In this document: positions 381 to 29,995 of the stretch, one piece after another
Layout: the number at the start of each line of letters is the position of its first letter
Position numbering within the stretch: the first letter of the stretch is position 1
Assembly (NCBI GenBank): GCA_009602725.1
Contig: WELB01000243.1
Coordinates: 121,622 to 155,862, forward strand
Reading direction: 5' to 3'
Length of the DNA stretch: 34,241 bases
Source: Spirogloea muscicola
Taxonomy: Eukaryota; Streptophyta; Zygnematophyceae; Spirogloeales; Spirogloeaceae
Made by a program: the position numbers and the translations under genes
Notes under the pieces: generated by a model
Told to the model about the DNA's origin: nothing
Seen by the model: only the letters and a program-made list of their open reading frames with translations
The model's database searches: none

Positions 381-465
381 TTCTGGCCTCTTCGACCTTT
401 GCTCATTCTTTTCTTCTGGGCTAGCCAATCATGGCCATCGCCCTCTACTGGAAGCGTCTTCCTGC
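381..465 (+). repeat. Terminal-hairpin repeat, subfamily II
   Basis: The core reads GGGCTAGCCAATCATGGCC, then CTCTACTGGAAGCGTCTT, preceded by a T-rich run ending CATTCTTTTCTTCT. The same core occurs at 2478 and 4844. It lies immediately upstream of a retrotransposon C-terminal fragment, at the same protein position as the insertion at 27671–27808. Confidence 0.7.
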
Positions 466-484
466 CGTTCCCCTTCCTCTCTCG

Positions 485-848
485 AGCTGCTCAACCAGCT
501 CTCACGTCACGCCATTGCCCGCCGCTTCCATAGGGAGCCGGTGGACTTCCTTTCAGCCGGGTCGCTAGCGCAAGTGTACCGCATGCGCTTGGCCGTCTCG
601 CTGCAGAGGTCTAAGGCCCGCACGCTGCACCTGCGTGCCGTCAGAGCCCTCGCTTGTTGTTCTTCGTACTTCCCCTGGCCCCTTCTCGTCCTTTGTTCAC
701 TCTTTTCTAGGCTGGCTTTCTCCAGCCCCTATCCTCAATGGGCGAGCCCTTTCCCTCGCTGCTGCCTCTGGCTCTAGCCAGGGGACCCGCTTCCAGAAAC
801 CCAGTCTCTCTGAACCTGAGGCTGCTTAGCAGGTTAGCAGGGGTGTCT
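485..848 (+). mobile_element. Non-LTR retrotransposon ORF, C-terminal fragment 1
   Basis: Translation from about 490 gives a stretch with AGSLAQVYRMRLAVSLQRS, which aligns with the copies at 3710, 27809 and 28900. This is the helical C-terminus that follows the endonuclease domain in this element. The reading is interrupted between RALA and AASG by a hairpin unit (655–760), resumes at 758, then is frameshifted before the degenerate LRLLSR terminus near 835. The 5' part of the element is missing. It is not functional. Confidence 0.75.
647..760 (+). repeat. Hairpin repeat (subfamily III) inserted in retrotransposon ORF, 8-bp TSD
   Basis: A 98-bp unit (655–752) is flanked by perfect copies of CCCTCGCT at 647–654 and 753–760. 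Removing the unit and one copy restores the uninterrupted reading A-L-A-A-A-S-G seen in sister copies. The core is GGCTGGCTTTCTCCAGCCCC followed by ATGGGCGAGCCC. A near-identical unit lies at 28266–28370. Unit plus duplication is 106 bp, not a multiple of three, and there is no GT–AG pair at the edges. Confidence 0.75.
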
Positions 849-879
849 AAGTGCTTTGTAGCTGCTTGGTTCTCTTAGT

Positions 880-975
880 GCTTCCCCTGGCCCCCTTTCA
901 TCCTTGGTTCCAGCTTTTTTGGGCTGGCTTATTCCAGCCCCTATCCTCAATGGGCGAGCCCGTCTTCCTCTCTCT
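880..975 (+). repeat. Terminal-hairpin repeat, subfamily III
   Basis: The core GGGCTGGCTTATTCCAGCCC is at 921–940, followed by the tail CAATGGGCGAGCCC. It forms the tail of fragment 1 and is fused directly to fragment 2. Confidence 0.7.
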
Positions 976-1099
976 GCTGGCTTGGCTGCTGCCTCCGTGT
1001 TCCGACGTGGCGGTGCTTTTCCGCCCTCTACTTATGCGGAGTGCTTCTTTCCCAGCTTCGAGTTATTCTGACTTGCTGTTGCTCACCCGTGGATATTGA
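976..1099 (+). mobile_element. Non-LTR retrotransposon ORF, C-terminal fragment 2
   Basis: Only the last ~40 codons remain: a degenerate AAAS-like start, one frameshift, then SASFPASSYSDLLLLTRGY and the stop at 1097–1099. The ending matches the + copy that stops at 28066. It starts directly after the hairpin tail of the previous fragment, so the two 3' ends are stacked head to tail. Confidence 0.75.
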
Positions 1100-1240
1100 G
1101 CTTCCATCTGCATCGCTTCGTGTCCACTTGTGTAGGTTTTCCTTTTCGGCCCCAATTTGTGGACTTTGGATATTGTCCATTCTTTTGTGGGCTGGCTTTG
1201 CTAGCCCCTCTTCTTCTATGGGCGCGCACTTTCTAGTTAT
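1100..1240 (+). repeat. Retrotransposon 3' UTR with hairpin, subfamily IV
   Basis: The UTR resembles 28067–28200. It includes GGACTTTGGATATTGTCC, the core GGGCTGGCTTTGCTAGCCCC at 1189–1208, and the tail ATGGGCGCGCACTT. Confidence 0.7.
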
Positions 1241-1267
1241 GCCAATCTGCGCTTGCTCACCAGAAAG

Positions 1268-1322
1268 AAATTGGCTCTCCCAAAAGGGGGCAAGGGTTGT
1301 GAACCAGAATGGATGGACAAAG
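1268..1322 (-). repeat. Eroded hairpin repeat, reverse orientation
   Basis: Reads GGCTCTCCCAAAAGGGGGCA on +, the reverse complement of the subfamily I tail, followed by a decayed core and GGATGGACAAAGG. It faces the preceding + copy. Confidence 0.55.
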
Positions 1323-1640
1323 GAATGGGCAAGGTCCAAAGAACCGAAAGGCTAGCCTTTCCCAGCCGAAAGGCGCCTTAAGACCACACAAGACTAAAGC
1401 GGAGGGGAAGCTTAACAACCCCGTGTTAGCAGCAGCAATTGGAGTAATTGAAAAGGCCGGATGGCGCAAAAAACAGGATACTAGTCTCCAAGACGTCAGC
1501 AAGTGGGCTCAGATAGGCCATGGTGGCCTTTGCACAGCCGCTTGCACAGCGAGCACTCCAGTAGAACGGCCGGCTGCGTCTCTGGAATAAAGCAGAACCA
1601 AGTAAGCTGGTAGTACAGAAATCAAGAGATTATGAGCCGA

Positions 1641-1790
1641 CTCACACTATGTGATATCACTTCTCCTGCGGCAATGATTATAGAATCCAAAGGTGAGGGA
1701 TTTCCTTCCTGGAAATGGGAAATGACCATGCATCTACAATACTGCGATCTCTCTGGGATTGTTGATGGTTCGGATCCAGAACCATTGTAG
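1641..1790 (+). mobile_element. Copia-type gag N-terminal fragment (+ arm)
   Basis: Translates to a stretch containing FPSWKWEMTMHLQYCDLSGI, then a stop. The pattern xxWxxxMxxxLxxxxLxxxVDG is typical of the N-terminal gag/UBN2-like region of Copia retrotransposons. It matches the reverse-strand copy at 2232–2390 residue for residue over most of its length. There is no protease, integrase or reverse transcriptase nearby. It is a relic. Confidence 0.7.
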
Positions 1791-2109
1791 AATCATCCTA
1801 CGTAGAATATCTGATTCTTGCGCTGCGTGTAACTCTATGGGAAATTGAGCTTCAATCTCAGCCATGATCCTGAGCAAAACGACAAGCGTGAGTACATATG
1901 AAACTTAAACATCGAATGTGAGTAGAAGGTAAGTACAAACAGTCTTGCCGTGTGGAGTAGCCTTTGTAGCAGTAGGCTAGCTCTTTCTGTTGCAGTACAT
2001 AGCTATTTCTTCTTTCTGGACCTAGCCTTCACAGCTACTGTCCTCCTTGTGACAGAGCTACTTCTGCTGCTACAAAGGCTACTCCACCCGGCAAGGACTG
2101 TTTGTATTC

Positions 2110-2390
2110 ACCTTTTTCTCAGGTTTGGCACTTATAGTTAGGGCGCTTGTCATTCTCCTCAGGAGCATGGCTGAGATTGACGCTCCCGTTGAAGTTCCCG
2201 TTGAATAACCTGCAGCGCAGGAAGCGGATATTGTGTTTAGGTGATTCTCCAATGCTTCGAAATCCAAACCATCAACAACTCCAAAGAGATTGCGATGTTG
2301 TAGATGCATGGTCATTTTCCATTTCCAGGAAGAAAAGCTCTCACCAGTAATAATGAGTGCCACAGGAGAAGTGATCTCATATTGTGTGAG
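2110..2390 (-). mobile_element. Copia-type gag N-terminal fragment (− arm)
   Basis: The reverse-strand translation reads EITSPVALIITGESFSSWKW and then KMTMHLQHRNLFGVVDGLDF. It is the better preserved of the two gag copies and stays open to about 2082. The initiator and the rest of the polyprotein are absent. Confidence 0.7.
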
Positions 2391-2429
2391 TGGGCCCATA
2401 ACCTCCAGTGGCCACTTGAGTCGCTGTGT

Positions 2430-2525
2430 GATCCAACGCGTTTCTGGCCCCTGTACACTTCGTTCAATATACTTTCTGGGCTGGCCAATCACAGCCATCG
2501 CCTCTACTGGAAGAGTCTTTCTTCT
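2430..2525 (+). repeat. Terminal-hairpin repeat, subfamily II
   Basis: The core GGGCTGGCCAATCACAGCC (2478–2496) is followed by ATCGCCTCTACTGGAAGAGT. It is nearly identical to the unit at 4844. It abuts the gag inverted repeat and has no retrotransposon C-terminus next to it. Confidence 0.7.
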
Positions 2526-2559
2526 TTGATTTCTGATATTACTAAATTAGAAGTTCTGC

Positions 2560-3340
2560 CTTATTACACTAGACGTGATACGGACGGTGTGCCGAAGGGT
2601 GTGGCGGAGGCGGCAGCCACGACGGGAGCGGCAGTGGAGGAGTCGGCTCGGGCGGCGAAGGAGGGTGGATATTTGCAGGAGTGGCGACGGGCAGCGGAGA
2701 TGTGGAGGGCGGGGGGGGTGGCGCTGATGGAGGCAATGGCGGAGGTGGGGACGGTGGAGGGACGAGGGGCAGCGGGGATGGCAGAGCGGCGGAGGCGGCA
2801 AAGGAGGCTCGCATAGGGAGTGGAGGAGGGAGGAGAGGCGGACAGATGGAAGCAGCGGCTGCGGCGCTGGAGGCGGTGGCGGTGCAGATGGCTGCCGCTC
2901 CGGCCTCGTCCTTGGGCAAGGCTTCGAGACGGCCTGGCAGCCGTGCTTTGCGCATTTCGGCCCTTTCAGGCCTTGCACATTCCTTTGGGCTGGCCTCTCA
3001 CAGTCACTGCCATAGATTGAAACAGCTGTTTATTTGCCAGGGGGAGACCGGGGCTGCGACTGCGTCTGCGGCGCAGGGAGGGCGCGAGTGGGGCGACGGG
3101 GTGCGGGGCAGCGCGCTGGCGAGGGCGGCGTCGGCGGGCGTGCGGCAACCATGGGAGCTGTGGCGGTGGGTGCGGGGGCGCGGGCACGGAAGCTTGGAGT
3201 GCGGAGGGGAGGGGCGGCGCGGGGTGTTGGGGTGGCGGCGGCGGCGGCCGCGGCGGCGGCCCCTTCGAGGGGGGCCCACACAGCTGCCACTCCCCGCCGC
3301 CGCCCCAGCGCCAGCACCACGCTGTCTCGCGCGTCACGAC
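2560..3340. repeat. G-rich low-complexity block
   Basis: Purine/GGC-rich DNA with short GCG and GGA runs, densest near 3225–3265. It supports a 278-codon + frame from 2681 to 3517 (Gly/Ala/Arg-rich) and several antisense frames. No domain is recognisable. A hairpin repeat sits inside it. Confidence 0.6.
2957..3030 (+). repeat. Terminal-hairpin repeat within G-rich block
   Basis: The core GGGCTGGCCTCTCACAGTC starts at 2987, preceded by GGCCTTGCACATTCCTTT. The tail is degenerate. Confidence 0.6.
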
Positions 3341-3479
3341 TGCGTAACTTTACGCCGCTCTCAGCTCGAGGAAGAAACCACCTCCCCCAGGATATCAGTG
3401 ACCCCCTTAGCCAGCTCATTGCCCCGTTGCCAGGACTGTTGTAAGGCTTGGATTTGGCCTCCCACTGCATGCGCACCGC

Positions 3480-3517
3480 ACGCCTTCTCCCCCCAGCTGC
3501 TGACTCGTGGTTACTGA
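3480..3517 (+). mobile_element. Retrotransposon ORF 3' terminus, minimal remnant
   Basis: The frame ends AFSPQLLTRGY-stop (TGA at 3515–3517), the C-terminal signature seen at 1099 and 28066. Nothing upstream in the frame resembles the rest of the retrotransposon protein. No clear hairpin follows. Confidence 0.5.
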
Positions 3518-3699
3518 GCGGGTCAGCGTAGCAGCAGGTGATGTACATCTGTCAATGTGCTTGCCATGGTACTTGGGCTCACAGGCCCTCCATCACTTAA
3601 TGTGCACTCCCAGTCGTCAGCCTGGTGAAGCGTCCAGGCATCTGTGAGAAGTGCATCCCCCACCCCCCCACCCCCGGGGGTGGCGAATTTAAAGTACAC

Positions 3700-4019
3700 G
3701 GACCGCCCATGGGAGGACGAGTTCTTCCCGCTCGTCATCGACACTCACGGGGCCTTCGGCGCTCGGAGGCTCGAGCTGCTACACCAGCTCTTGCGTGGCG
3801 CTATCTCCCGCCGGTACCATGGGGAACAGGTGGATTTCCATGCAGCAGGCTCGCTCGCGCAGGTGTTATCGCATGTCCGTCTCGCTGCAGAGATCCATGG
3901 CACGCGCGCTGCATCTGCCTGCCGGTCGTGCCATAGCTGCAGCCTCAGGCCCTGGCCGGGGGACCCGCTACCAGCAGACCACTTTCTCCGACCTACGGCT
4001 GCTCAACAGGGGTCACTGA
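3700..4019 (+). mobile_element. Non-LTR retrotransposon ORF, C-terminal fragment
   Basis: From about 3712 it reads DEFFPLVIDTHGAFGARRLE, then LLHQLLRGAISRRYHGEQVD, FHAAGSLAQV, then (after a frameshift) MSVSLQRSMARALHLPAGRA and DLRLLNRGH-stop. This copy has no insertion at either of the two sites interrupted elsewhere, so it is the local reference for the intact C-terminus. It is 5'-truncated and frameshifted near 3867. Confidence 0.8.
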
Positions 4020-4140
4020 GTGATTCGTACCTACTCGGTTCCCTGTGAGCTTTAGCGCTTTCCCTGGGCCCCTCGAACGTTGTTCTATTCTTCTTCCTAG
4101 GCTGGCCTCTCACAGCCACCGCCCTCTCCTGGAAGCGTCC
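4020..4140 (+). repeat. Retrotransposon 3' UTR with hairpin
   Basis: Follows LLNRGH-stop directly. Contains GGGCCCCTCGAACGTTGTTC, then the core AGGCTGGCCTCTCACAGCC (4099–4117) and a CTCCTGGAAGCG tail. Confidence 0.7.
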
Positions 4141-4423
4141 TATTCGCCCCGCGGCCATCGCCTCCGTCTTTGACTTAGAGCGCACGCCCAGCACGATGAA
4201 TAAGGAAAAGTTGCAAAGAAGAGCCTTATATGTTTTCTTCTATGACGTGCCTTACATGTTGAGGTAGGACGGCGAGACATGAGACGGATGCAGGTGTATG
4301 CGATGATACTGTAACGTCCTGGAGTGTCATTGATTAAGAGCAGGAAGCTTGATCCCATTGGTTCGATACTTGAGTTAGATGCTCATCAAAAGTACGGTGG
4401 ATGTCCCTTTAAAGGCATCAGAG

Positions 4424-4506
4424 AGTGGCTGGGAGGCGACGGCCAGAAGTGTTGACAAGGTTAGCGCAACCTTGTCAACACTTCTGGCCGTCGCCTCCCA
4501 GCCACT
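4424..4506. repeat. Perfect palindrome, 39-bp arms, 5-nt loop
   Basis: Positions 4424–4462 and 4468–4506 are exact reverse complements around AGCGC (4463–4467). The arms begin AGTGGCTGGGAGGCGACGG. Flanks do not pair. A transcript would form a 39-bp hairpin. Confidence 0.9.
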
Positions 4507-4794
4507 GCAAGCAAGCAGTGCAAGCAATACTGGCAAACGAGGGGCATGTTCAGACCTGCTCAGTGCAAAGGCCTAGGTCTTCGTCCCTTCACGTGTCCCT
4601 AAACCTGACAATCCACCAGGGGGCTCATCAGATTGTGAGTGTTCCTGTGCACTCCATCAGGAGCTGACAAGGCCCTGGACAGCAGCCGGAGGGAATGACA
4701 TATATTCCACCGAGGAGGCCCAGACTGTGCTTAGAAATAGAGTGAGGCTCTTCGGAGAAGGCATGATACAATCTGCAACTTCAGTGCTGCTCGG

Positions 4795-4890
4795 TCAAGG
4801 GGCCTTTTCGGCACCCTAATCGCACAGATAGCATTATTTTTCTGGGATGGCCGATCACAGCCATCAACCTCTACTGAAAGAGTCTTTCTT
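4795..4890 (+). repeat. Terminal-hairpin repeat, subfamily II
   Basis: The core GGGATGGCCGATCACAGCC (4844–4862) is followed by CTCTACTGAAAGAGTCTTTC. It is a solo copy with no retrotransposon coding next to it. Confidence 0.65.
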
Positions 4891-4989
4891 CTGACTTGCA
4901 ATGAGGGCACTCTGTTGGGCGGGTCACAGGCAGCCACCTCGGAGAAGCCACATTGGCCAACGAGGAAATTGCCACTTCTGAAGCGCCAC

Positions 4990-9039: not shown

Positions 9040-9120
9040 CAAAAAAAGAGACAGCTCTTCCAATGTAAAGCAATGGCTGTGAGAGGCCAGCCCAAACAAA
9101 TGGACAAGGCCCCCAAGAAG
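9040..9120 (-). repeat. Terminal-hairpin repeat in the phosphofructokinase 3' UTR
   Basis: On the − strand it reads GGGGGCCTTGTCCATTTGTT, the core GGGCTGGCCTCTCACAGCC (+ 9075–9093), then TGGAAGAGCTGTCTC. It starts within 40 bases of the phosphofructokinase stop and has the gene's orientation, so it is probably transcribed as part of its 3' UTR. Confidence 0.75.
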
Positions 9121-9155: not shown

Positions 9156-12100
9156 TTAGACAGCAGCCTTTGAAGGCTGCGGGACGTGGGCCTTGGCAAT
9201 GCCGCCGTCATCCGGAGCGCGGAAAAAGTCGGGCTGGTTGTTGACCGATCGCACCCACGCCCATGTGCGGTCCTGTACATTCACAATGTTCTGGGTGTCC
9301 ACCACGCGCTGCAAGCACACAGAGCAACCGTGACAGCAATGCCGGTGATGAGTATGCTTGAGCACGGCCCCCCTCTTGAGCACCGCCGAGGGGGGGGGCT
9401 CAGAAGCCGCCTGGCTGCTTGAGTATCTCCCTCTGCACGGAACTTTCTCAAGAAATAGCCAGGCTACACGCTGAAGTGTTTGACTCGCATGCTGCATGTA
9501 TAGGAGGGAGAGACACAGGACATGGATAGCCCTGTAGCTTATGATTGTCAGGAGCCTCGTGCTTAGGCTTAATAGACAGGCGCCGGAGCTCACCTCCATA
9601 GGGATATAGCCTGGCACCAGCAGCCAGATGGGAAGACATGAAAGGGCAAACGCTCAAGGTAAGACAAATTTAGGGACGAGGCAGCGACCCAAATTGGCCC
9701 GCAGTCTTCAAGGGCATCAAGGCTGCGCAAGCAATTTTCCTCTATGTGGCGGTGCACTAGGTTCGGCCCTCAATCCTAACTCCTGGAAGCCAAGGTTGCA
9801 ACAGCACGAATGATGGCTGCAGGAAAGCCTCACAATAGTGATTGTTTACGGGCCCGCAGATGAATCCGGTGTAGCCAGCCATGGCACCATGCACTGCATT
9901 GTGGGCCAGCAATGTGCAGTAGATCGTGTCGGCTGCATTGCTGGGCACTGCACGAACCATGTACGTGGGGTCTGCTCCAACCCAACTCGCAAATGGCAGC
10001 ATGCCGTCAGCGCCTACTGGCAAGATGCGCAGGGGTAGGGCCCTGGCACAACGAGAATGCTGGACGCTGTCTAACATGCACCACTGGCGCATGTTGATGA
10101 GGACTTATAGCTCCAGGGTCAGCTGAAGGCGGTTGGTCAAGAATGCCAAAAAGCGATGGTTTTACAAAGCAGGCGGGCGAGCGCTGCTTACCAATGTACT
10201 TGAGGCTGAGAGCACTGTTGTGCTTGGCCGCCCACCGCGCCTGCGCAATTGCAGCGCACGCAAGAAGAGGGAGAGGGGGGTGGGGACAGCCAGGGCCATC
10301 AGGTGCAAGCTTGAGCATGAAGTGGTGGTAATCAAGTTGGTCGCAAGGAGGCGGTGGCGCAGCAGCGGCAGGAGCCGAACCTTGAGCTGCGTGCCGAGCC
10401 AGAGGCCAATGTCGAGCAGGAGACGGTTTCCGGAGGCATCGACGACCTCGACCTCGGGCAAGGCTGCAACGAGGTCCTGACCGGCGCCTTCGGCAACCAG
10501 GATGACACAGTGTCCATTCTCCGCCAGCTTCGCCTCCATGAACTCGGCCAGACCCCCCGGACCATCAATCCAGAATGGCACCTCTGGGATGAGAACGCAA
10601 TCTACGTCGCGGCTTGCCATGGTCGCCGCCGTCGCTATGTGCCCTGCAGCCAGCGAGGTGCACATGACCTGAGTACAGGGCATAGGACCTGAAGCTAAGC
10701 CCTACAGTATCCCCAATGAGGAGGGATGTGGAGGAGGAAGGTGGATAGAGGGGCGGTAGGGTGCGTACCGGCGTAGCGCCCCATGACCTTGACGAGCCCG
10801 ACGCCCATGGGCGTACTTTCGGCCTCCACGTGCGCCGCATTGATGGCCGCCTGCGCTGCCATCACCGCCGTGTCGAAGCTGCGGGCCTGCAGGCGTCAGT
10901 GCGGGGCCAGGGCGATGGCAGCAGTGGGCGGCGGCAGTGGCGGCGCTGGCGCTCACCCAAACGAGCGGTCAATGATGGCCACATCGTTGTCGACGGTCTT
11001 GGGGATGCCGCACACGACCACCTTGAGGCCGCGTGCAACAATCTCCTGCAGCAGCCGCAGAGGTTCAAAGGGGTCTGAGCGCCGGGGTCCACTACTGCGT
11101 ACCAACAAGGCTACAATCCTTCGTTCCTTACTTGGGTGGCTGAGACTCCTGTGGTAGGAAAGTTAGCAAGCAGAAGGAGAGGATCCATCAGGACTTCATT
11201 CCTAACTCAGGTGGCTGAGAGTCCTGTGTTAGTTAGGAATGTAAGCAAGCAGATGGAGAGGAAGGCTCCAGACCTGGTGGATCAAAATTGCGCCGCGCTG
11301 CGTGCCATCGCCACCGATGATGAAGACCTGCGGCAGGTGGCAGCAGCGGTGGTCAGGCAAACCCCTGGTCACGGCAGCAATGACAGAAGCGACCTCGCTG
11401 TGCAGATGGCGGAGGGTGGCCGGGGGTTGAGGGAGCGAGGAGAGACCATGTTGATGCCGCGGTCTTCAATTGAGTCGACAATCTTCTTTGTGTCATGGCC
11501 ACCTCGTGTGGTGCCGAGCATTGTGCCGCCGCGCTTGTGCCAGTCAGTCACCACACGTGGCATCAGCGGCACTGTGTTGTAGCTGTAGAACCCCCTGTAT
11601 CCGCCCTGCAGAGGGCAGATGGGCGGAGGGAGGTGGAGGTGGTGAGAGGCAGGAGCCAGCCCTGCAACTGGTGGTGGCAAAAGGGAGAGCAAGGACGGTG
11701 GCAGGACGGGAGGGACGGAGGGAGGAGGACTGAGGAGAGAGGAGGACGGGACATGGAAGAGTCAGATGACTGTGATGAGACAGGAGCAGCAGAAGGCGAG
11801 TGGAGGAGGAACGAGTGAGGGCAGAAGGCGGAGCAGCGCACGTGGATGCCCTCGATGTTGCGCACGCCATACTGGCGCCAGAGCGACATGACGAGCTCGC
11901 GGATGACGGTGTTGAGCCCGGGGCAGAGGCCGCCGCACGTCACGATGGCCGCCTTCACCTCGTCCGAGCGGAACATGACCTGCAGCGCCCATATGTGCCA
12001 GCACGGCGGAAACTTAAGGTAGGGAGATAAGATAAGATGAAAGAGAGAGATGAGATGGTAGGAAGTGAGAGGCCCAGGTGAGAAGGCAGGACATTGAAGC

Positions 12101-12887
12101 ACCTTCTGGCGGGGCCCGCCGCGACGGTAGTATGCCGTCTCAGTCTGTGCGCTGAGGTTGCCGACAACCTGCAAGGAGAGCGGCCGCTGTTGAAGCAGGG
12201 ACGCGGTGAAAGGGAGCACGGCCGCAGCATCGGCGAGCCAGAGGAGCGGCAGGGGAGGTGGGTGGGAGGTGCCCACGTCGCGCGCGATGACGTCGCAGTC
12301 GTGCGTGAAGTACTTCCTGCGGCAAGCAGTGCATTTGAGGGTTTCAGCTGCGGAGGGAGGAGGAGGAAGTTTAAGAGAGTGGAGCGAGGCGCTGAGGGCG
12401 CAATTGAGCACCGCGAGGCGTGACGGCGGCTGCTACGCTCACTGGATGGGGTGGAAGAACTTGTCGACGACCAGCGGGTTGTCGTACTCCTGCGCCGCGC
12501 GGGCAGCCGGCAGCCGTGGCCGTTAGATGCAGAGGCGCAGCGTCATGGAAGCGTTTCAATGGACGCCGCAACGAGAGGCACCGAACCGCAAGGCACCGAA
12601 CCGCAAGGCCGATACCTGCGCTACATTGGAGGGAGGGCAGGGAGGTGGGAGCGGAGGCGAGGAGGAAAGAGGGAGGAGGGAGGCATGGTGGATGGTGAGG
12701 CCGCGGCCACCTGGAGCTCGGGCAGGTAGTCCCGCAGGTGCGCGACGTCGTCCAGCTCGCCGCCGAAGCCCGTCCGCAGCGGACGCCCGTCGCCGGCGCA
12801 GCCCCGTAGACCGCCGCCGCCGCCGTCGCCCCAACCGTCATTGCCACTGCCGGCCGCCACGTCCAGGCTGACACGCCGCGCCGGCAT
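9156..12887 (-). CDS. PFK: ATP-dependent 6-phosphofructokinase, plant type (14 exons)
   Basis: The enzyme phosphorylates fructose 6-phosphate to fructose 1,6-bisphosphate in glycolysis. Exons, in + coordinates from 5' to 3': 12711–12887, 12443–12489, 12277–12316, 12103–12168, 11842–11979, 11447–11605, 11274–11327, 10957–11045, 10769–10878, 10381–10643, 10192–10240, 9834–9971, 9594–9610, 9156–9308. All phases fit GT–AG introns and give about 499 residues. Motifs are [13 protein letters not shown] (start of the conserved plant region), CGGLCPGLN (~125), GGDGTQRG (~214; Gly after GGD fits ATP rather than PPi as donor), PKTVDND (~242), MGRYAG (~289) and [15 protein letters not shown] (~396). The frame stays open upstream of the 12887 ATG to the N gap, so a longer N-terminus (e.g. 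a transit peptide) is possible. Exon 13 is only 17 bases. Confidence 0.93.
11118..11272. repeat. Tandem duplication inside a phosphofructokinase intron
   Basis: Two ~75-bp imperfect copies sit in the 11046–11273 intron. Each has a TTCCTNACT-like start, then GGTGGCTGAGANTCCTGTG, then AAGCAAGCAGA(A/T)GGAGAGGA-like sequence. They start near 11123 and 11200. The following exon (11274–11327) is not duplicated. Confidence 0.65.
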
Positions 12888-13042
12888 GCGGGAGGAGTGA
12901 GGCCGAGCAGCTCGGCTGACGATCTGCGGGCGTGGCCGAGCGCCAGGCGCGGGGGCTTTACCGGCAGGGCTTCGAGAGCCCCCGCCGCAGCGGCGGGCTG
13001 GCCGGGCCGAGGCGGCGCCGGAGCCGCGCCGCCACGGAGGCC

Positions 13043-13648
13043 NNNNNNNNNNNNNNNNNNNNNNNNNNNNNNNNNNNNNNNNNNNNNNNNNNNNNNNNNN
13101 NNNNNNNNNNNNNNNNNNNNNNNNNNNNNNNNNNNNNNNNNNNNNNNNNNNNNNNNNNNNNNNNNNNNNNNNNNNNNNNNNNNNNNNNNNNNNNNNNNNN
13201 NNNNNNNNNNNNNNNNNNNNNNNNNNNNNNNNNNNNNNNNNNNNNNNNNNNNNNNNNNNNNNNNNNNNNNNNNNNNNNNNNNNNNNNNNNNNNNNNNNNN
13301 NNNNNNNNNNNNNNNNNNNNNNNNNNNNNNNNNNNNNNNNNNNNNNNNNNNNNNNNNNNNNNNNNNNNNNNNNNNNNNNNNNNNNNNNNNNNNNNNNNNN
13401 NNNNNNNNNNNNNNNNNNNNNNNNNNNNNNNNNNNNNNNNNNNNNNNNNNNNNNNNNNNNNNNNNNNNNNNNNNNNNNNNNNNNNNNNNNNNNNNNNNNN
13501 NNNNNNNNNNNNNNNNNNNNNNNNNNNNNNNNNNNNNNNNNNNNNNNNNNNNNNNNNNNNNNNNNNNNNNNNNNNNNNNNNNNNNNNNNNNNNNNNNNNN
13601 NNNNNNNNNNNNNNNNNNNNNNNNNNNNNNNNNNNNNNNNNNNNNNNN
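13043..13648. other. Assembly gap (606 N)
   Basis: An unsequenced run between two divergent genes, flanked by extremely GC-rich DNA with CGG repeats on the right. It must contain most of the shared upstream region and may contain the N-terminus of the phosphofructokinase. Confidence 0.99.
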
Positions 13649-13688
13649 CGGCGGCGGCGGCGGCGGCAGCGGCAGCGGCGGCGGCGCC
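13649..13688. repeat. CGG/GGC trinucleotide repeat in 5' region of carrier gene
   Basis: Runs of CGG with a few CAG interruptions start at the gap edge, 45–85 bases before the carrier ATG. Such a repeat probably explains the assembly failure. Confidence 0.85.
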
Positions 13689-13732
13689 GCAACGATCGCC
13701 TGATCTGGACGCCCTCCCGCTCCGCTGCCGCC

Positions 13733-15330
13733 ATGAGCCTGTCGGCCGCGCAGCGGCCGCTGCCAGCGGCCGAGGTCAACTGGGACCGGTGCGTCCGCTT
13801 GAGCCCCATCCTAAGCCCCTCCTGTAACTCCTCCTCTCCTTCACCTTGCCTCGCCCTCTGGGACCTCTGCCGCTTGGTGGCTGCCAGCCCAAGCTGCGGC
13901 GGTGATAGCGGCGTCGCCATCGCCCAGCTGCGGCGGTGACAGCCCTTGCTGCGCTCGCAGGCTGGACAAGACCAAGTTCTTCGTCGTCGGCGCGGGCCTC
14001 TTCTCCGGCGTCTCCGCGGCGCTCTACCCCATCTCCGTCGTCAAGACCCGCCTGCAGATCGCCGGCGGCGGCGGCGGCGCCGCGGCCGCCACGGCCGTGG
14101 GGACGGCGCAGGCCATCCTGCGCGCCGAGGGCGTGGCGGGCTTCTACCGCGGCTTTGGCACGGTCGTCGCTGGCACCATCCCCGGCCGCGCCGTGTACAT
14201 GTCCACGCTGGAGCTCACCAAGGCCGCGGCGCTGCGGGCCACCGAAGGCGGCGCCCTGCCCGAGGCCACGCGCGCTGCGCTCGCCTCCTCTGCCGCCGGC
14301 ATGACCGCCTCGCTCTCCACGCAGGCCGTCTTCGTCCCCATTGACGTGGTGAGCTGTGGGTGCGGCCGGAAGGAAGCGCCGCCACTATTGCTGTGCTGTC
14401 GCCGACTCGCCGCCCAGCAATCTGCTCCTTAAATCTGAGACCCTCTCTCCCGCCTCCGTTGCCGGCTGTCGCAGGTCAGCCAGCGGCTGATGGTGCAGGG
14501 CGCTGGCGAGCCTGGCGGGACGCGCTACAAGGGCGGCGTGGACGCATTTCGCACAATCATTCGCACCGAGGGCGTCCGAGGCCTCTACAGGGGCTTCGGC
14601 ATGTCTGTTGTCACTTATGCGCCATCCTCTGCAGTCTGGTGGGGTTCTTACGGTGCCAGCCAGCGGCTCTTCTGGAGGTGCGCCTCATTGCGGCGAGCTC
14701 GGCGCAGTCGCCTCGAGGGCGCTGTGGCATTTAGGCGCTTGTGTGAACTGTGTCTGATCCCTCAAGGCTTCACAGCGACCCTGACAGCAGCGGCAGTGTT
14801 TGGGTGGGGCTGCAGCTGGCTGGGGTACAGCAGTGAGAGCTCTGCCACCCTGCAGCAGCCAGCACCGCCGTCGCATGCCATGGTCATGGGCGTGCAGGCT
14901 TTTGGCGGCACGTGCGCTGGCGGCGTTGCAGCCCTCGTCACCACGCCCCTAGACGTCATCAAGACGCGCCTCCAGGTATGCCCCAATTGACACACACATT
15001 ATGAATGATATTCGGATGATCCTCGACGCTCTGTACGCTGTCCGTCTGCTGATCATTTTTGCAGTTAGTAGCTGCTGCGACGCCTTCGCTGCATCTGAAC
15101 TATCATGCAGCGCCGCTGCGGCACATTGCCCGTGTCCAATACGTTGGCTGCCTGTTTCGCCAACAAGCAGGTGATGCAGCGGGAGGGGGGTGGGCGGCCG
15201 AGTGTCAGTGACACAGTGCGCCGGCTGGTGCGTGACGAGGGCCTCCGCGGCTTCTACCGCGGCCTTGGGCCGCGCTGGGCGTCCATGGCCCTCTGGGGAA
15301 CCGCCATGATAACAACCTACGAGTTCCTCA
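13733..15330 (+). CDS. Mitochondrial carrier, SLC25A44-like
   Basis: Exons 13733–13788, 13961–14348, 14475–14677, 14816–14975 and 15171–15330 join in phase to about 322 residues. Three carrier repeats are visible, with signature sites YPISVVKTR, VPIDVVSQR and TPLDVIKTR. Only the third has a canonical PxDxxK; the first has Ser at the acidic position, and plant SLC25A44-like carriers also depart from the consensus there. Further family marks are LDKTKFFVVGAGLFSGVSAA near the N-terminus, EGVAGFYRGFGT, EGVRGLYRGFGMSVVTYAPS and EGLRGFYRGLGPRW. SLC25A44 in animals transports branched-chain amino acids; the substrate here is not shown. The C-terminus is uncertain: either the frame reads on to the stop at 15446 (TGTAA at 15520–15524) or GTATGC at 15331 is a donor to a later exon. 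Confidence 0.9.
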
Positions 15331-16539: not shown

Positions 16540-16760
16540 ATTCAGCGCCCCCAGGGATGCACATAGAGAGAAGTGCCTCACACAACGGGGGGGCAGGGGC
16601 TGCGAACAGCGAGCCCGAAAACAATTGACAAGGTCCAAAGGGGCCAAAAGCGCTGTCTCAGAGCTTAGGTAGGATGGATCAGTTAATTACCACGAGTGAG
16701 GAGCCGCAAATCCGCAATACTAGCAGCCGTAAAGCAATCCCAAAGTGCTCGCCCACAGAG
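16540..16760 (-). mobile_element. Retrotransposon 3' end with hairpin
   Basis: On − it reads ADLRLLTRGN-stop (TAA, + 16683–16685), then a 3' UTR with CCTTTGGACCTTGTCAATTG, then the hairpin core GGGCTCGCTGTTCGCAGCCC (+ 16597–16616). Together with the fragment at 16120 it looks like pieces of one or two old insertions. Confidence 0.7.
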
Positions 16761-16984: not shown

Positions 16985-17050
16985 CGAAGGAGAAGTGGTG
17001 GCTCTCCCAATGGGGGCAAGGGCTGTGAACAGCCAGCTCCGAAAAAACGG
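16985..17050 (-). repeat. Terminal-hairpin repeat, subfamily I, with duplicated tail
   Basis: On − the decayed core GGAGCTGGCTGTTCACAGCCC (+ 17020–17040) is followed by CCCCCATTGGGAGAGCCACC. The tail motif GGGAGAGCCAC occurs twice (+ 16982–17004). Confidence 0.65.
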
Positions 17051-17163
17051 ACAGGAAGACAAGCATGATGTCCACAATCGATCTCCCCATCACCGCGGTT
17101 GGTTACCTGGTCGGCCCCCTGGCCTGTTCTGGTAGGTGGCCCCACCACCCTCCCCCCTGCCCG

Positions 17164-24489: not shown

Positions 24490-25551
24490 CCGTACGCCAG
24501 GTGAGATCTTGATCGGAAGTACCTGTCGTGCTCGTTTGCGTTGTAACATTGTAGCTGCTGCGTCCTGTGCTTTCTGACTGTCCTCGATGACTTTGTCACC
24601 AGTTGCCCTCCTCTTTGACGATGACCTTCCTCCTGACGCGACCTGGCCTTGCTTGCTGGTCATTACTGCAGAAGTAGGTGGCAGTGGCACACTGCTCGCA
24701 GCAGGTTCGACCTCGGTGACAGTCGGCAAGTGGGCTGCTACCTCGACCTTCCTCCTCGTCTTCCTCGAGGTCCCCAGAGTGCCTCCTCGGCTGCTGGTGG
24801 TCGGAGCACCGCCGCTGTCTGAGCCCGACGAGCTGCTGCCCGTGCCAGCTGCCACATCCTGCTGAGCGCCTCCCGCCGCTTCTGGGTCCTCCATGACAGC
24901 CTTGCCCTTCTTCTCCCTCGCATGGAGCTTCAGCATCTGGGCGCTCCCCGCCCGCTGCTTGTGGCCTGACCGGTCGGCAAGCGCCTCTTCGACTCCCACC
25001 GCCATGTCTGCAACTCGTGTGGGGTCCTGTACGAGCTCGGGCTGGCGGCTCCCTCGCAAAGAAGCACGGCTCGGTCCAGAGTGGTCAGCCAGATCAGGCA
25101 AAGCTGTGGCTGTGGTAGACGGTAGGCCTCCCCCCGGCAAGCCGTCTACTCCCCCACTGACTGTGCCGACTACATTGGGCTGCTGGAGGCTTGTGCGCTC
25201 AAGTTCCTGGACCGGGCGGGGGTTTGCTGAGGCGTCCTCATCTGTGGCCCACGGGGCTTCGTGGACCGACTGGACTCCAGCGGTGGGTTGCCGATTGGAC
25301 TCGTTCGCCGGTCCTTGCGGCGGTGCGAGCTCGATCTCGCTCTGGCCCGAGGCGTCCAGCCCTGCTGCCAGCCGCCTGCCAGGGCTAGCGCCTGGCTCGC
25401 CCGCTCGCTCTCCCGCAGCGCAGTCACCCACAGGGGAGGACGCTGGTGTCACGGTCCCTCTCCAGGCGCCCGACGGGCGCTCGGCCAATGCAGCCCGATG
25501 GAACAGAGCTGGCGGCACGAGCCGCGCCGCGTCTCCATGCCGTCTTGCCAC
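24490..25551 (-). CDS. Large exon of an unrecognised Ser/Pro/Ala-rich, probably nuclear protein
   Basis: A 365-codon − frame begins after an acceptor-like GCTGTCAG at 25552–25559 and probably ends at the CGACAG|GTACTT donor near 24521. It is mostly disordered (Ser, Pro, Gln, Gly) with basic clusters resembling nuclear localisation signals: SRKTRRKVE, SSSKRRATGDK and QRKRARQ. There is no enzymatic motif. It may be part of the same − gene as 22806–23742 and/or 30832–33988, split by the retrotransposon block at 25.8–29.9 kb, but I cannot prove continuity. There is one ambiguous base upstream at 25705. Confidence 0.45.
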
Positions 25552-25753
25552 CTGACAGCGGCGGGCTTGCGCGACCGGCCTGGCGGGCTCTCGACGCCTG
25601 CAGCACCGCCAACGCCACGGCGCCGCCGGCGGTGGCGGGGCCGGACACGGCAGTGAGTGCCAGGGCGCGCCGCCGCCGCCAGCAAGCAGGGCAGCAGCTC
25701 GCGGNCACCCTCCCTCCTGGCGCGGCGCACGTCAGCGGGGCGTGGAGCCGCGG

Positions 25754-25764
25754 AGGCACTGCCT
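25754..25764. repeat. Palindrome AGGCACTGCCT, copy 1
   Basis: An 11-bp palindrome with one central base, 39 bases before copy 2. Confidence 0.9.
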
Positions 25765-25803
25765 ACATTCGCGAGGCTGGGCCCCGCACGCCCGCCGTCC
25801 CGT

Positions 25804-25814
25804 AGGCACTGCCT
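25804..25814. repeat. Palindrome AGGCACTGCCT, copy 2
   Basis: Context is CCCGT before and ATGTCATC after. It marks an abrupt change from GC-rich to AT-rich sequence. Confidence 0.9.
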
Positions 25815-26018
25815 ATGTCATCAGCTCAAAATTAATCAATTTCTTCATCGCCAGGTTTTCATCTACTATCGAAGAACAATGATGGGCCGCATCAGCCCGA
25901 CGGGCAGCACGCATTTGCGCAAGCTTTTGATTTGCACCCCCCCCCAGACGTAAGCGCCGCTTGTCGCCGCGGGCGCCCTGGGCGCGGGCCAACCAACGCG
26001 GCACCCCCTCCGCCGGAT

Positions 26019-26029
26019 AGGCACTGCCT
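26019..26029. repeat. Palindrome AGGCACTGCCT, copy 3
   Basis: It lies exactly where reverse-transcriptase homology begins; the in-frame stop TAG (26018–26020) overlaps it. Confidence 0.9.
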
Positions 26030-28066
26030 GTCCGGGGCGCCTTCTGCCGGCTGGGGTACGGTCAGCCCTGCGAGCTGCAGTGGCGGGCGGGGGGTGATGG
26101 GCTGGTGACCCTCCACTCCACCAGGGGCGCGCGCCAAGGGGATCCACTGGCGGGGTTCTACTATGCGTTGGCACACCACCGTGCGCTCCAGGCAACGGTC
26201 GCGGTTCACCCCGGCGTCCTCGTGCCGACTTACGCTGATAACACCACGCTGGTGGGGAAGCCAGAGGATGTCACAGCTGCCTTCGACACCCTCCAAGTGC
26301 AGCTGAACGCGATCGGCCTGGATATCCGGGCGGACAAGTGCAGCGCCTGGTCCCCTCAGGGCCTGCCAGCCCACCTGCGCCTGCCCGAGGGTTGCCAGAC
26401 ACCAGCCGGGGGCCTCACCCTCCTCGGCGTCCCCCTAGGCGCACCTGCCTTCATGACGGAGCAGCTGCAGGCGCGGCTGCAGGAACACCTCCGGCCAGCG
26501 GACCGTCTCCACGCGCTGCACGACATGCAGCTTGCGTCTGCGAAGCTGACTCGGTGCATTGCGCAGCGGCCACCATATCTGGCCCGCACCATCCCCCCCT
26601 CGTCGGCGGTGAAGGCAGCGTATGCGGCCTTTGACTCCGGCATCCTGGCGTCCGCGGCCACCCTGGTACAGCACCCCGTGTTCCTCACCACACCAGCAGC
26701 GCTGCTGCAGGCCAGCCTGCCGATCAGCCGTGGCGGCTTGGGATGCCGCTCAGTTGCCCGCGGCTGCGAGGCGGCCTACATGGGTAGCTGGGCTCAGGTG
26801 GCAGCCCCAATGAGCCAGAGGTTCCTCGTGGACGGCCAGCGCGTCCAGGAGCGGGTGGCAGCTGAGGTGGAGATCGGTCAGCTGCCTTTTCAGGTTGCCC
26901 TCCGCTCTGCCCGCGACGGGCTCCTGGCGGTCCACCCCCGCATGTCGGAACAGGCTGTTCCTTTCATCCACCTCGCCCACACCCCAGACCAGCGTGCCCA
27001 GGCACGCTTCTCGGCGTTGGTTAAACAAGTGGCCTCCGACCAGTTGGTGGAGCTTCTCCCCCCGGCTGACCTGCGAGGGCGCGCCCGGCTGCTCTCAGCC
27101 TCCTCCCCTGGGGCGGCGGCGTGGCTATCGGCGCTTCCACTCCACGCGGCGCTCACAATGCCTGACGAGGTCTTCCGGACGGCGGTCCGCCGGCTCTTGG
27201 GCCTCCTTCCCCCCTGCCTCGTGGGCGTCCCTCAATGCGAGTGCGGTGCCCGACACGATGATCCTGCGGAGCTGGCCGCCCACATGCTCCGTTGCGCCCA
27301 CGGGGGGGAGCGGACCGCTTCCCATGACCTCCTGCGCGACGGTATGCAGGGGGTGTTTTCGGAGGCGGGCTTCAAGGTTGCGGTAGAGAACTCAATCATG
27401 CCCATTCAGCTGGGCGCGGACGGCCAGCCCCATACGCGACGCGCTGACCTGGTCGCCATCCCTCCCGGCGGGGGTCCCCGCATCATCGCTGATGTGGTGA
27501 CAACAGACTGCATCGACTCCGCCAACCCCACCAGATCGGCGTCGTTTGCAGGGCACGCGGTCGGCCAGGCGGCCCGCGGCAAGGAGCGAAATACGCTGAT
27601 CACCCGGTGGGGGATGAATTCGCGGCCCTGGCGATGGATGTACACGGGGCTTTCGGCAGCCGCTGGCTGGATCCTCCCCCGTTCTGCCATAGCCTCTTCA
27701 GGCCCCGCAGTCGCTGCTTAGCTCGTAGTTTGGCCCCTTCGAACCTTGTCAATTTTTTTCGGGCTGGCTTCTCACAGCCCTTGCCCCCATTGGGAGAGCC
27801 ACTTCTTCGATCTCATTCAGCGGCTTGCTCGCCAGGCCATTGACCGGCGGCCGGGTCTGCCAGGGGCGATGCCCGGCTTCAACGCCGCCGGGTCGCTCGC
27901 ACAAGTCTTCCGCATGCGCCTGGCAGTATCGCTTCAACACTCCCTTGCCCACGCCGTCCATACGCGCGCAGGCCGTGCTATGGCTGCCGCCTCTGGGTCT
28001 CGGCGGAGCGCCTCTTTCCCTGCAGCGAGCTACTCAGACCTGATGTTGCTCACTCGTGGGTACTGA
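26021..28066 (+). mobile_element. Non-LTR retrotransposon: partial reverse transcriptase + restriction-like endonuclease (broken)
   Basis: The longest copy. It starts inside the reverse transcriptase: HSTRGARQGDPLAGFYYALA (motif with QGDP), then PTYADNTTLVG at the catalytic YADD position with Asn for the second Asp, then GLDIRADKCSAW and LLGVPLG. The C-terminal half has a CxC…HxxxC zinc-like cluster (QCECG … AAHMLRC) and the endonuclease core RRADLVAI…IIADVVTTD, as in REL-type non-LTR elements (R2/NeSL/CRE, also Dualen/RandI of green algae). The frame shifts by one base near 27590, is interrupted by a hairpin unit at 27671–27808, and ends in SDLMLLTRGY-stop at 28064–28066. The upstream half of the element is absent. 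It is a dead, 5'-truncated copy. Confidence 0.88.
27671..27808 (+). repeat. 3' UTR/hairpin unit (subfamily I) inserted inside the retrotransposon ORF
   Basis: Sister copies read WLD-LL-ARLA without a break; here WLD and LIQRLA are separated by ~138 bp. The insert matches the 3' UTR that follows the − strand stop at 28651: CTGCCATAGCCTCTTCAGGC, GGCCCCTTCGAACCTTGTCA, the core GGGCTGGCTTCTCACAGCCC (27761–27780), then CCCCATTGGGAGAGCCACTT. GAT occurs on both sides (27669–27671 and 27809–27811), a possible short target duplication. It is therefore a tail-only insertion. Confidence 0.8.
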
Positions 28067-28205
28067 GCTTTCCTCTGCATCGTTTCTGTGTTCTGCAGTA
28101 TGTTTTAGTGTAGTCCTTTCTCCGGCTCCTCTTGCTTTGGCTTTGGACATTGTCCATTCTTTTTTGGGCTGGCTTTGCCAGCCCCTCTTTTCTTTGGGCG
28201 CGCTC
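28067..28205 (+). repeat. Retrotransposon 3' UTR with hairpin, subfamily IV
   Basis: Follows the LLTRGY stop. Contains GGACATTGTCCATTCTTTTT, the core GGGCTGGCTTTGCCAGCCCC (28166–28185), then TTTGGGCGCGCTCTTCCCCC and GCAG, where the next module starts. Confidence 0.75.
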
Positions 28206-28370
28206 TTCCCCCGCAGGCCGCTTAGCAGGGCTTACTGAGTGCTTCGTAGCTGCTTCGCTTCTTTTCTGTGCTTGTTGTTCTTCGTACTTCCCCTGGCCCC
28301 TTCTCGTCCTTTGTACATTCTTTTCTGGGCTGGCTTTTTCCAGCCCCCATCCTCAATGGGCGAGCCCTTC
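28206..28370 (+). mobile_element. Stacked extra 3' end with hairpin, subfamily III
   Basis: Begins as a minimal C-terminus (PLSRAY-stop, TGA 28236–28238), then a UTR with TGCTTCGTAGCTGCTTCGC, then a unit nearly identical to the insertion at 655–752 (core 28327–28346), ending CTTCTCCCGCAG. It is a second tail placed directly after the first. Confidence 0.75.
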
Positions 28371-28401
28371 TCCCGCAGGGGCCGACCGTTGTGATAGAGG
28401 A

Positions 28402-28465
28402 GCAAGCGCGGCCAGATTAACTGGTGGCTGGGAGAGGCCAGCCCAAAAGAATGGACAAGGTCTGA
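28402..28465 (-). repeat. Hairpin repeat, subfamily V, copy 1
   Basis: A 64-bp unit, 62 of 64 bases identical to 29855–29918 and in the same orientation. The core on + is GGCTGGGAGAGGCCAGCCC, then AAAAGAATGGACAAGGTCTG. Confidence 0.85.
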
Positions 28466-28650
28466 TAGAGAAGTGCGCGCCCATAGAGAAGAGGGGCTGG
28501 CAAAGAAAGAAGTGGCTCTCCCAATGGGGGCAAGGGCTGTGAGAAGCCAGCCCGAAAAGAATTGACAAGGTTCGAAGGGGCCAAACTACGAGCTAAGCAG
28601 CGCCTGTGGGGCCTGAAGAGGCTATGGCAGAAGGGGGGAGGATGGACCAC
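28466..28650 (-). repeat. Retrotransposon 3' UTR with one complete and one truncated hairpin
   Basis: On − it follows the stop at 28651. A complete subfamily I unit (core + 28534–28553) is followed by the 3' half of a subfamily IV unit (+ 28471–28504, TATGGGCGCGCACTT on −), then the subfamily V unit. Three hairpin tails are stacked. Confidence 0.75.
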
Positions 28651-29628
28651 TCAGTAGTTACGAGTAAGGAGCCTCACATCCGACAGACTAGCTGCCGGAA
28701 AACTATCCCCCTGAAGAAAGCCGGAGGCCGCAGCGAGAGCACGGCCAGCACGCAGATGCAAGGCGTGGGCCATGGACCGCTGGAGGGAGACGGACAAGCG
28801 CATACGATACACCTGAGCCCACGAGCCAGCGGGCGTTGAAGTCAGCCGGCTCACCACGCCTGCGGGACACAGCGCGCCGTGCAAGCCTGGCCAACAGGTC
28901 GAGCCAGTGGGAGACGAGAGCCCCGTGCACGTCCACAGCCAGGGGGACGAACTCATCGGCAGCCGGGTGGTCGGCGTGTTTGGCCGCCTTGCTGCGAGCG
29001 GCCTTCGCCGCAGCGTGGCCAACCCGCGAGGCAGAAAGCCCCGGGTTGGAGCGGTCGACCACATCAGTGGTGACCACATCGGCAATGATGCGCCCGCCAC
29101 CGCCCGTCATGGACGCCACCAGGTCGACGCGGCGCGTGTGGAGTCCGTCGGCCCTCTGGAGGATGGGCATGACCGACGTATTCTCCATCGCAACTGTGTA
29201 TCCGGCCTCCTGGAAGATGCCGAACATTGCGTCGCGGAGGAGGTCGTGAGCGGCTGTGCGCTCGCCGCCAGTGGCGCAGCGGAGGATATGCGCCGCTAGC
29301 TCCGCCGGGTCCGTCGACCGCTCCCCACACTCACACTGCAGCACGCCTGGCCGCGCTTGCTCTCACGCCAAGCAGACAGGGCGGGGGAAGACCCAACAGG
29401 CGATGGGTGGGCCGTACGGAAGAGTTCGTCCGGCATCCTGAGGGCATCGTACAGGGGGAGCGCGGACAGCCAGGCTGCCGCGCCAGGGGAGGCGGCCGAC
29501 AGCAGCCGAGCATGGCCTCGCACGTCTGTGGGAGGGAGGAGCTGCAGCGTGGCCGTGAAGGACGCCTTGTCAACTGCCGCCATGTACCGCGCCTGCGCTT
29601 GCGAGTCGGTGGAGTGGGCAAGGTGGCA
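28651..29628 (-). mobile_element. Non-LTR retrotransposon fragment: endonuclease and C-terminus (broken)
   Basis: On − it begins LAHSTDSQAQARYMAAVDKA, through LLPPTDVRGHARLLSA and SPGAAAWLSALPLYDALRMP; a frameshift follows near 29375. It continues QCECGERSTDPAELAAHILR, THTRRVDLVASMTGGG-like (HTRRVDLVASMTGGG) and IIADVVTTDVV (endonuclease), then DEFVPLAVDVHGAL and SHWLDLLARLARRAV. A one-base insertion near 28843 shifts the frame before AQVYRMRLSVSLQRSMAHAL and DVRLLTRNY-stop (28651–28653). It lacks the reverse transcriptase. At its 5' end it is fused to the hairpin of another copy. Confidence 0.85.
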
Positions 29629-29755
29629 AAGCCAGCCCAAAAAAGAATGGACAATGTCCAAAGCCAAAGAAAGAGGAGCCGGAGAAAGGACTACACTACA
29701 AAACACTGCAGAACACAGAAACGATGCAGAGGGAAGCTCAGTACCCACGTGTGAT
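29629..29755 (-). mobile_element. 3' end of another copy fused upstream of the − fragment
   Basis: On − it reads CACGTGGGTACTGAGC (TRGY-stop), a UTR almost identical to 28067–28170, then half a subfamily IV hairpin broken at GGGCTGGCTTTGCC, where the coding of the next copy begins without a gap. Confidence 0.7.
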
Positions 29756-29766
29756 AGGCACTGCCT
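29756..29766. repeat. Palindrome AGGCACTGCCT, copy 4
   Basis: Sits between the TRGY terminus (− strand) and a + strand half hairpin, again at a junction. Confidence 0.9.
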
Positions 29767-29812
29767 GGCCATAAGCCAGCCCCTCTTCTCTATGGGCGCG
29801 CACTTCTCCCAT
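29767..29812 (+). repeat. Half hairpin repeat, subfamily IV (3' half)
   Basis: Reads AGCCAGCCCCTCTTCTCTAT then GGGCGCGCACTTCTCCC. The 5' half is missing; the break point is complementary in position to the truncated unit at 29627–29645. Confidence 0.6.
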
Positions 29813-29854
29813 AAGCCCGCCCCGCTCCCCCGGCCCCGACTGGACTAAAAGAAA

Positions 29855-29995
29855 GCAAGCGCGGCCAGATTAGCTGGTGGCTGGGAGAGGCCAGCCCAAA
29901 AGAACGGACAAGGTCTGAAGGAGCCGGAGTGCTAAGGACTGAGACAGCAGCAAGCGGACTCTCAGTAACCTCTAGTCAGTAGATGCAAGTCTGAA
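29855..29995 (-). mobile_element. Retrotransposon 3' end with subfamily V hairpin
   Basis: On − it reads DLHLLTRGY-stop (+ 29962–29964), a short UTR with GGCTCCTTCAGACCTTGTCC, and the subfamily V unit (29855–29918) shared with 28402–28465. Confidence 0.75.

Follow-up and report, generated by a model that had tools for sequence, protein, structure and literature searches.

What is a short hairpin that recurs behind retrotransposon genes and also stands alone? The question is raised by a 34,241-nt stretch of the Spirogloea muscicola genome (assembly GCA_009602725.1, contig WELB01000243.1, positions 121,622 to 155,862), here called the window, for which a preliminary description had reported about twenty copies of such an element. 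Very probably, the hairpin forms the 3' terminus of an abundant, R2-like non-long-terminal-repeat (non-LTR) retrotransposon, a long interspersed nuclear element (LINE) with a restriction-like endonuclease (RLE), and its solitary copies derive from copying that stopped early. A covariance model, R1, gave 19 window matches at E<1e-3 under full scoring; they include all 17 positions named in the preliminary description and two further copies, at 29598-29662 (-) and 1269-1340 (-). Fourteen of the 19 are among the 28 rows from which the model was built, and those starting at 2452, 4819, 16996, 29598 and 1269 are independent of it. A crude core pattern allowing up to 3 mismatches had 47 window matches where 13 would be expected, a number that no shuffle out of 100 attained; this count covers both strands, and one palindromic place may count twice. 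At gathering score, Rfam had no match in the window or in an 80 kb control set.

The coding element that carries the hairpin is represented in the window by an open reading frame (ORF) at 26105-27721, which matched at least 84 places in the genome in a protein search (80 of 7250 first-look candidates scored). Twenty LINE copies were chosen for diversity by their reverse transcriptase (RT) match and fetched with 3' flank, and 19 of them have the hairpin at the expected 3' place, about 600 nt into the fetched stretch. In seven elements with an intact C-terminus, spanning five hairpin groups, the stop codon and the hairpin are 64, 70, 76, 78, 90, 97 and 98 nt apart, and the order past the stop is hairpin, tail and CU-rich end. 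Two copies of one subfamily, 99.9% alike over 2,450 nt, fix the 5' end and give an element of about 4.3 kb. Within the window, a LINE C-terminus ends closely upstream of 6 of the 19 hairpins (at 28063+, 28654-, 4016+, 1096+, 16689- and 29965-), two of these matches being weak (16689, 54% identity, E 9e-5; 29965, 11 aa, E 0.007). The earlier proposals that some copies follow a retrotransposon stop codon, and that the hairpin is a non-LTR 3' end found with or without its coding part, are both borne out by these LINE copies and the solitary ones.

The LINE protein resembles that of R2. RT motifs, a CCHC motif and an RLE-like C-terminus, recognized by eye, are conserved in eight sequences, seven of which are 67-98% identical to the first. 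Two CxxC...H...C motifs were also seen by eye at the N-terminus of the translated open frame of L041; Pfam had no match to them, nor any endonuclease match in the L041 or L043 frames. RVT_1 was found in four LINE proteins (E 1e-13 to 2e-17). A profile search of the PDB returned three R2 retrotransposon proteins at E 1e-6 to 2e-5, which are the only credible matches since the sole other one is an unrelated chain at E 2.9; single-sequence PDB searches returned no matches. With a low-confidence AlphaFold model from RT to RLE, R2 proteins took ranks 1-6 in Foldseek over 726-775 aligned columns, at template modelling scores (TM-scores) of about 0.2. For the 220 C-terminal residues, likewise a low-confidence model, all six matches at E<=0.001 were R2 proteins, with TM-scores of 0.36-0.46 of the query. 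By these sequence and profile comparisons, the carrier has a non-LTR-type RT related to R2. In one further copy, L052 (C433:21100-24100), the longest open frame starts with residues like those of a translated hairpin, which suggests a solo copy lying in frame upstream of the RT.

Do the hairpins belong to different retrotransposons, as had been proposed? A tree was built from 17 C-terminal protein stretches of the 20 LINEs, with L002, L003 and L018 dropped as too short, and hairpin type agrees with its grouping in five groups, although support is uneven, some of these forks are open, L020 cannot be scored as it lacks the hairpin, and its branch and that of L012 are long. L007, L008 and L019 have the hairpin GGGUUGGC UUU; L001 and L004-L006 have GGGCUGGC UUU, mutated in the L005 copy; L012 and L013 have a UUGUU loop; L014 and L015 have UUCUCA or UUUUCG; and L009-L011, L016 and L017 have CUCCUC, CCUUUC or CCUCUC. 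A sixth, more divergent 3' end has UGGCUG...CAGCCG, with a C-terminus upstream that is similar by eye. The same core is thus present in the five groups and the sixth 3' end, in keeping with the earlier count of at least five subfamilies. Given that hairpin type tracks the protein tree, the carriers of these different tails are sister subfamilies within a single LINE lineage and not unrelated elements.

This agreement, together with the same terminal place across LINE subfamilies, speaks against a separate mobile element, MITE-like (miniature inverted-repeat transposable element) or intron-like, that would have entered LINE tails. Such an origin might be read from the commonness of solitary copies and from one hairpin that lies within the window LINE's own ORF. 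There, the host coding region, which runs from within the RT as far as the RLE-like domain (26040..27673, +; 84% DNA identity to L045), is followed by a 5'-truncated 3'-end copy (27671..27808, +; 97% to L014) with a hairpin at 27738-27804 (position 27761), and then by the remainder of the interrupted ORF as far as its C-terminus at 28063 (27809..28063, +; 97.8% to L001, with a C-terminal peptide match). An L014-type tail piece thus splits an L001-type LINE, which aligns at 99.3% on one side of it and at 97.8% on the other. The host bases GATC (reference positions 276-279) occur on both sides as a 4-nt duplication, and the added DNA comprises 27674-27808 plus this duplication. The inserted copy brings 67 nt of sister-LINE sequence upstream of the model start and is flanked by the duplication, and with this we consider a separate element extremely improbable. 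In L053 (C95), the LINE open frame stops close to the place of this nested insertion.

Solitary copies were followed in 94 kb of DNA (the window and the fetched sequences), where the model search had 134 matches at E<=0.1, of which the best 118 were used. Among these, 106 align to a LINE 3' end, 20 of them over at least 560 nt, and 49 of the 106 end inside the model or at most 20 nt ahead of its start. Short matches of this kind would also be produced by true short interspersed nuclear elements (SINEs), in which the hairpin would form the 3' half of independent short RNAs with a LINE tail, mobilized in trans; Chlamydomonas offers a precedent, with SINEX elements that share RandI and L1 LINE tails (PMC3747384). 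No family-wide non-LINE sequence was found upstream of 116 of the best 118 matches (two segments were too short), a sample drawn from many thousands of copies. Outside the LINE references, only eight pairs of matches share collinear upstream sequence, four of these pairs within a single locus, and no larger family emerged. The window has no tRNA gene according to ARAGORN.

The ends of solitary copies, which had been singled out as worth mapping, were determined in 24 copies of a young subfamily, picked by an exact hairpin match and all on contig C1. Their 3' end is fixed and their 5' ends are ragged, at distances of 3-258 nt ahead of the hairpin and within the LINE 3' untranslated region (UTR) or leader; as the copies were found by their hairpin, truncation on the 3' side is invisible to such sampling. 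One 5' value, 43 for L029, marks the break of an internal insertion, because the upstream 25-mer sits 87 nt away. Target duplications were sought only in this young subfamily, after an unclear result in a mixed-age set. The two flanks share at least 8 nt in 6 of the 22 copies with usable flanks, whereas mismatched flank pairs do so in 6 of 462 cases, and at least 7 nt are shared in 9 of 22 against a permutation mean of 2.4 (maximum 6 in 300); in L031, among the six, and also in L055 and two tandem L067 copies, among the nine, the shared strings are merely CU-rich. The flanks of the 22 mapped copies revealed no common insertion site. The solitary copies look like 5'-truncated LINE insertions. 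With 5' ends that reach down to the hairpin itself and no constant 5' end, a SINE origin appears decidedly unlikely, and the independent SINE-like unit of the preliminary description did not hold up in this sample.

Along this subfamily, copy number drops steeply from the hairpin towards the coding part. At up to 2 mismatches, 25-mers of the young subfamily had 3799 matches for the hairpin, 755 for a site 70 nt upstream (UTR) and 99 for a site 1 kb upstream (coding), the hairpin and coding 25-mers also admitting matches from sister subfamilies; exact matches, counted in lists that run as far as one common point on C10, numbered 100, 48 and 1, respectively. On C1, 34 exact hairpins were listed, 12 of which have the exact upstream 25-mer 65-152 nt ahead. 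From the other 22, 21 were fetched, and 13 of these have their start under 70 nt ahead of the hairpin (the shortest begins directly at it), so near-minimal copies make up 13 of the 33 examined on C1. This excess would fit the copying of hairpin RNA itself, with free LINE 3'-end fragments (~45-75 nt) as templates, but early RT stops on a full-length template predict an identical ragged pattern, and we regard free fragments as an improbable source. A related idea is that a large population of near-minimal tails of ~45-75 nt moves as 'micro-SINEs', efficient templates forming a self-sufficient unit without a promoter or body of their own; this we think unlikely, too.

The best supported mechanism is target-primed reverse transcription from the 3' end with a frequent early stop. 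Each LINE RNA closes with a T-rich leader, a hairpin that combines a near-fixed GGCUG/CAGCC core with a subfamily-specific loop, then the G-rich tail and, last, a short CU-rich end. By analogy with stringent LINEs and R2, the element's protein may recognize this hairpin-bearing 3' end. The RLE would then nick the target, target-primed reverse transcription would begin at this 3' end, and it would often stop soon after the hairpin, leaving hairpin-only 'solo' copies.

How far is the hairpin conserved as a structure? When 28 copies are aligned, 14 of them window copies and 14 from LINE 3' ends and their neighbours, a T-rich leader, hairpin and G-rich tail can be distinguished, and all six invariant columns lie within the hairpin. 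The GGCUG/CAGCC core is nearly invariant and appears to be kept both as a sequence and as a stem, the loop being the part that changes between subfamilies. The conserved fold inferred in the preliminary description is therefore upheld for the pairing of the core, which is maintained chiefly through conservation of its sequence. Compensatory changes, its suggested check, are few in this nearly invariant core, with double changes at one stem pair among the 28 copies and at two among 127 distinct copies. In the latter, the six stem pairs are paired in 90.5% of cases against 90.0 in shuffles, and there are 3 double-change cells against 1.1, a number reached by 37 of 500 shuffles. At one inner stem pair, genome-wide, G-C occurs 10,520 times, G-U 397 times and A with C or U 128 times, the G-U variants belonging largely to one subfamily, judging from the listed places. 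A-U was found in 7 of 100 listed A-C/A-U matches, or about 9 in total, against about 4.5 expected if the two sides were independent; this excess is not strong evidence for compensation because four of the seven copies share the loop of the G-U subfamily.

Two further pairings were considered and set aside. A leader hairpin, GGAC...GTCC, pairs in 70.5% of cells, and the structure that includes it was not clearly above shuffles. Of six folded representatives, three have a predicted outer stem in which the leader (UUGUCCAUU) pairs with the tail (AAUGGGCGA); with both stems counted jointly, 454 of 500 shuffles pair at least equally well, and cognate leader-tail pairs were not clearly better than swapped ones across eight subfamilies (permutation p 0.065). 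As neither the shuffle nor the swap test gave a clear signal, the outer stem remains an idea.

Several observations weigh against the interpretation of the hairpin as the 3' terminus of an RLE-type LINE. Covariation in the stem is weak. The hairpin is present in the predicted fold of all six representative 3' ends (66-91 nt), three of which are more stable than shuffles (z -4.2, -2.8 and -4.1); the other three fold no better (z -0.6, -0.6 and +1.8). L020, one of the 20 fetched LINE copies, has no hairpin at the expected place. Twelve of the best 118 matches have no LINE-tail alignment, and a minority of another origin is therefore possible. In the mixed-age set of 113 matches, no clear target duplications were found (a score of at least 9 in 10 cases against 6.3 in the control). 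The RLE assignment is inferred from motifs seen by eye and from models with a mean predicted local distance difference test score (pLDDT) of 46 for the RT-to-RLE region and 60 for the C-terminal residues. The Foldseek search with the former model had 19 matches at E<=0.001, including LINE-1, group-II-like and other RTs.

The hairpin family is ordinary in kind and striking in scale. In the assembly searched (153 Mb, 471 contigs), the strict pattern TCTTTTN{0,3}GGGCTGGCN{3,7}CAGCC had 10,520 matches (5259 and 5261 on the two strands) and the reversed control none. Twenty control stretches of 4 kb at preset coordinates in the same genome held 9 matches in 80 kb, confined to 3 of the 20, a density that scales to ~17,000 copies genome-wide but is very uncertain given the clustering. 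The window is a dense hairpin patch, since the control stretches hold just these nine. Around 21 young copies (8.9 kb), 18 additional hairpin matches were found, 14 of them at >=26 bits, where ~1 would be expected; 26 bits is the lowest score among the nine control matches, from which that expectation was taken. Copies are thus grouped in nests, which may reflect target preference or nest-prone regions. In L067, in L073 and among the neighbours of other young solo copies, some copies have inserted into or close to another copy's tail, resulting in tandem hairpins.

The remaining window copies are distributed as follows. On the plus strand, 3'-tail hairpins lie at 391..461 (position 418; a GGCUA/UGGCC stem variant, R1 E 3e-9), 685..752 (710; E 2e-14), 897..964 (921; E 2.5e-13), 2452..2521 (2478; E 1e-8) and 2965..3030 (2987; E 1.5e-10). 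Those at 1165..1232 (1189, +) and 4072..4142 (4099, +), detected by R1, are downstream of the LINE C-termini matched at 1096 and 4016, respectively. Two copies are decayed, the extra one at 1269..1340 (-, E 8e-5) and that at 4819..4887 (4844, +, E 6e-4). On the minus strand, the hairpin at 9050..9115 (9075; E 7e-12) has no recognizable LINE C-terminus upstream in the C-terminus search, that at 16571..16639 (16597), a 3'-tail hairpin found by R1, has the weak C-terminus match at 16763-16689, and a further one lies at 16996..17062 (17020; E 3e-7). The interrupted LINE ends in a terminal 3' hairpin at 28142..28208 (28166, +, E 3e-16), ~100 nt past its stop codon. It is followed by the hairpin of a truncated LINE 3' end at 28303..28370 (28327, +), detected by R1, whose compared flanks, CTTCCCCCGCAGG and CTTCTCCCGCAGG, are alike at 12 of 13 positions. 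A solitary hairpin at 28401..28466 (28426, -), supported by R1 and tail alignment, is identical over 65 nt to the L016 3' end and cut at the leader, and the terminal hairpin of a minus-strand LINE with its C-terminus ending at 28654 lies at 28510..28576 (28534, -; R1, tail alignment and C-terminus match). The extra copy at 29598..29662 (-) has E 9e-7, and the 3'-tail hairpin at 29854..29919 (29879, -, E 2e-13) lies beside the 11-aa C-terminus match at 29997-29965.

Other features of the window include a long inverted repeat at 1626-2405 (arms 1692-1795/2242-2345 and 1626-1681/2350-2405, 84% complementary, plus inner arms), which resembles a fold-back element or a pair of copies of one repeat in opposite orientation. 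At 4424-4506, an inverted repeat with perfectly matching arms of 39 nt and a spacer of 5 nt has inner ends, AACCTTGTCAA, that resemble the hairpin leader; two element fragments facing opposite ways could account for it, or it could be an artefact. The range 13902-14990 contains exons for a mitochondrial carrier protein (Pfam Mito_carr), and just ahead of them (~13000-13700) the ORF translations show a long series of X, corresponding to N in the sequence. A phosphofructokinase match at 11563-12411 (-), perhaps an exon, is weak (E 0.0046, below the Pfam cut-off).

This population amounts to a dense natural archive of starts and early ends of reverse transcription by an RLE-type LINE, with thousands of copies that have one fixed 3' end and widely scattered 5' ends. 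Five or six subfamilies share the stem core, and their loops differ in step with the proteins, so the part of the protein that reads the loop becomes testable. R2-type proteins are under development for RNA-templated gene insertion (PMC11331408, PMC12222951), for which a short natural 3' tag would be useful. The titles and abstract openings surveyed contain no description of this particular hairpin, and one may exist in the literature.

Among known systems, R2 is closest. Like R2 (R2Bm, R2Tg and R2Pm), the element appears to encode N-terminal CxxC...H...C motifs, an RT, a CCHC motif and a C-terminal RLE-like domain in one open frame (judged partly by eye), and R2 proteins are its sole credible PDB profile relatives and top Foldseek matches. 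It differs in its low sequence similarity to R2 (the profile E values above), in inserting at many places and not at one fixed ribosomal DNA site, and in a 3' end centred on one short hairpin with a near-fixed core. In Chlamydomonas, Dualen LINEs have a second, apurinic/apyrimidinic endonuclease (APE)-type enzyme. There, the 3' tails of RandI/Dualen and L1 LINEs are common to the short SINEX elements (PMC3747384), whereas no SINE body was found here in the 118-match sample. R2Bm is reported to require no more than a small core of its 3' untranslated region, a 43-nt 'R2 tag' being sufficient (PMC10499050). In the stringent-type LINEs, a terminal 3' stem-loop is also present, and for the ZfL2 LINEs the stem is reported to be recognized generally and the loop specifically (PMC4176376). 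The fixed core and subfamily loops described here resemble this stem-general and loop-specific recognition in UnaL2, ZfL2-1 and ZfL2-2, although those belong to the L2 clade and such recognition is only predicted for the present element. In lacking a single fixed target, the putative RLE LINE resembles the HERO clade, RLE LINEs with many non-specific families (PMC4640811), and non-site-specific R2-like LINEs, with R2-like elements also described in the cockroach (PMC7650587).

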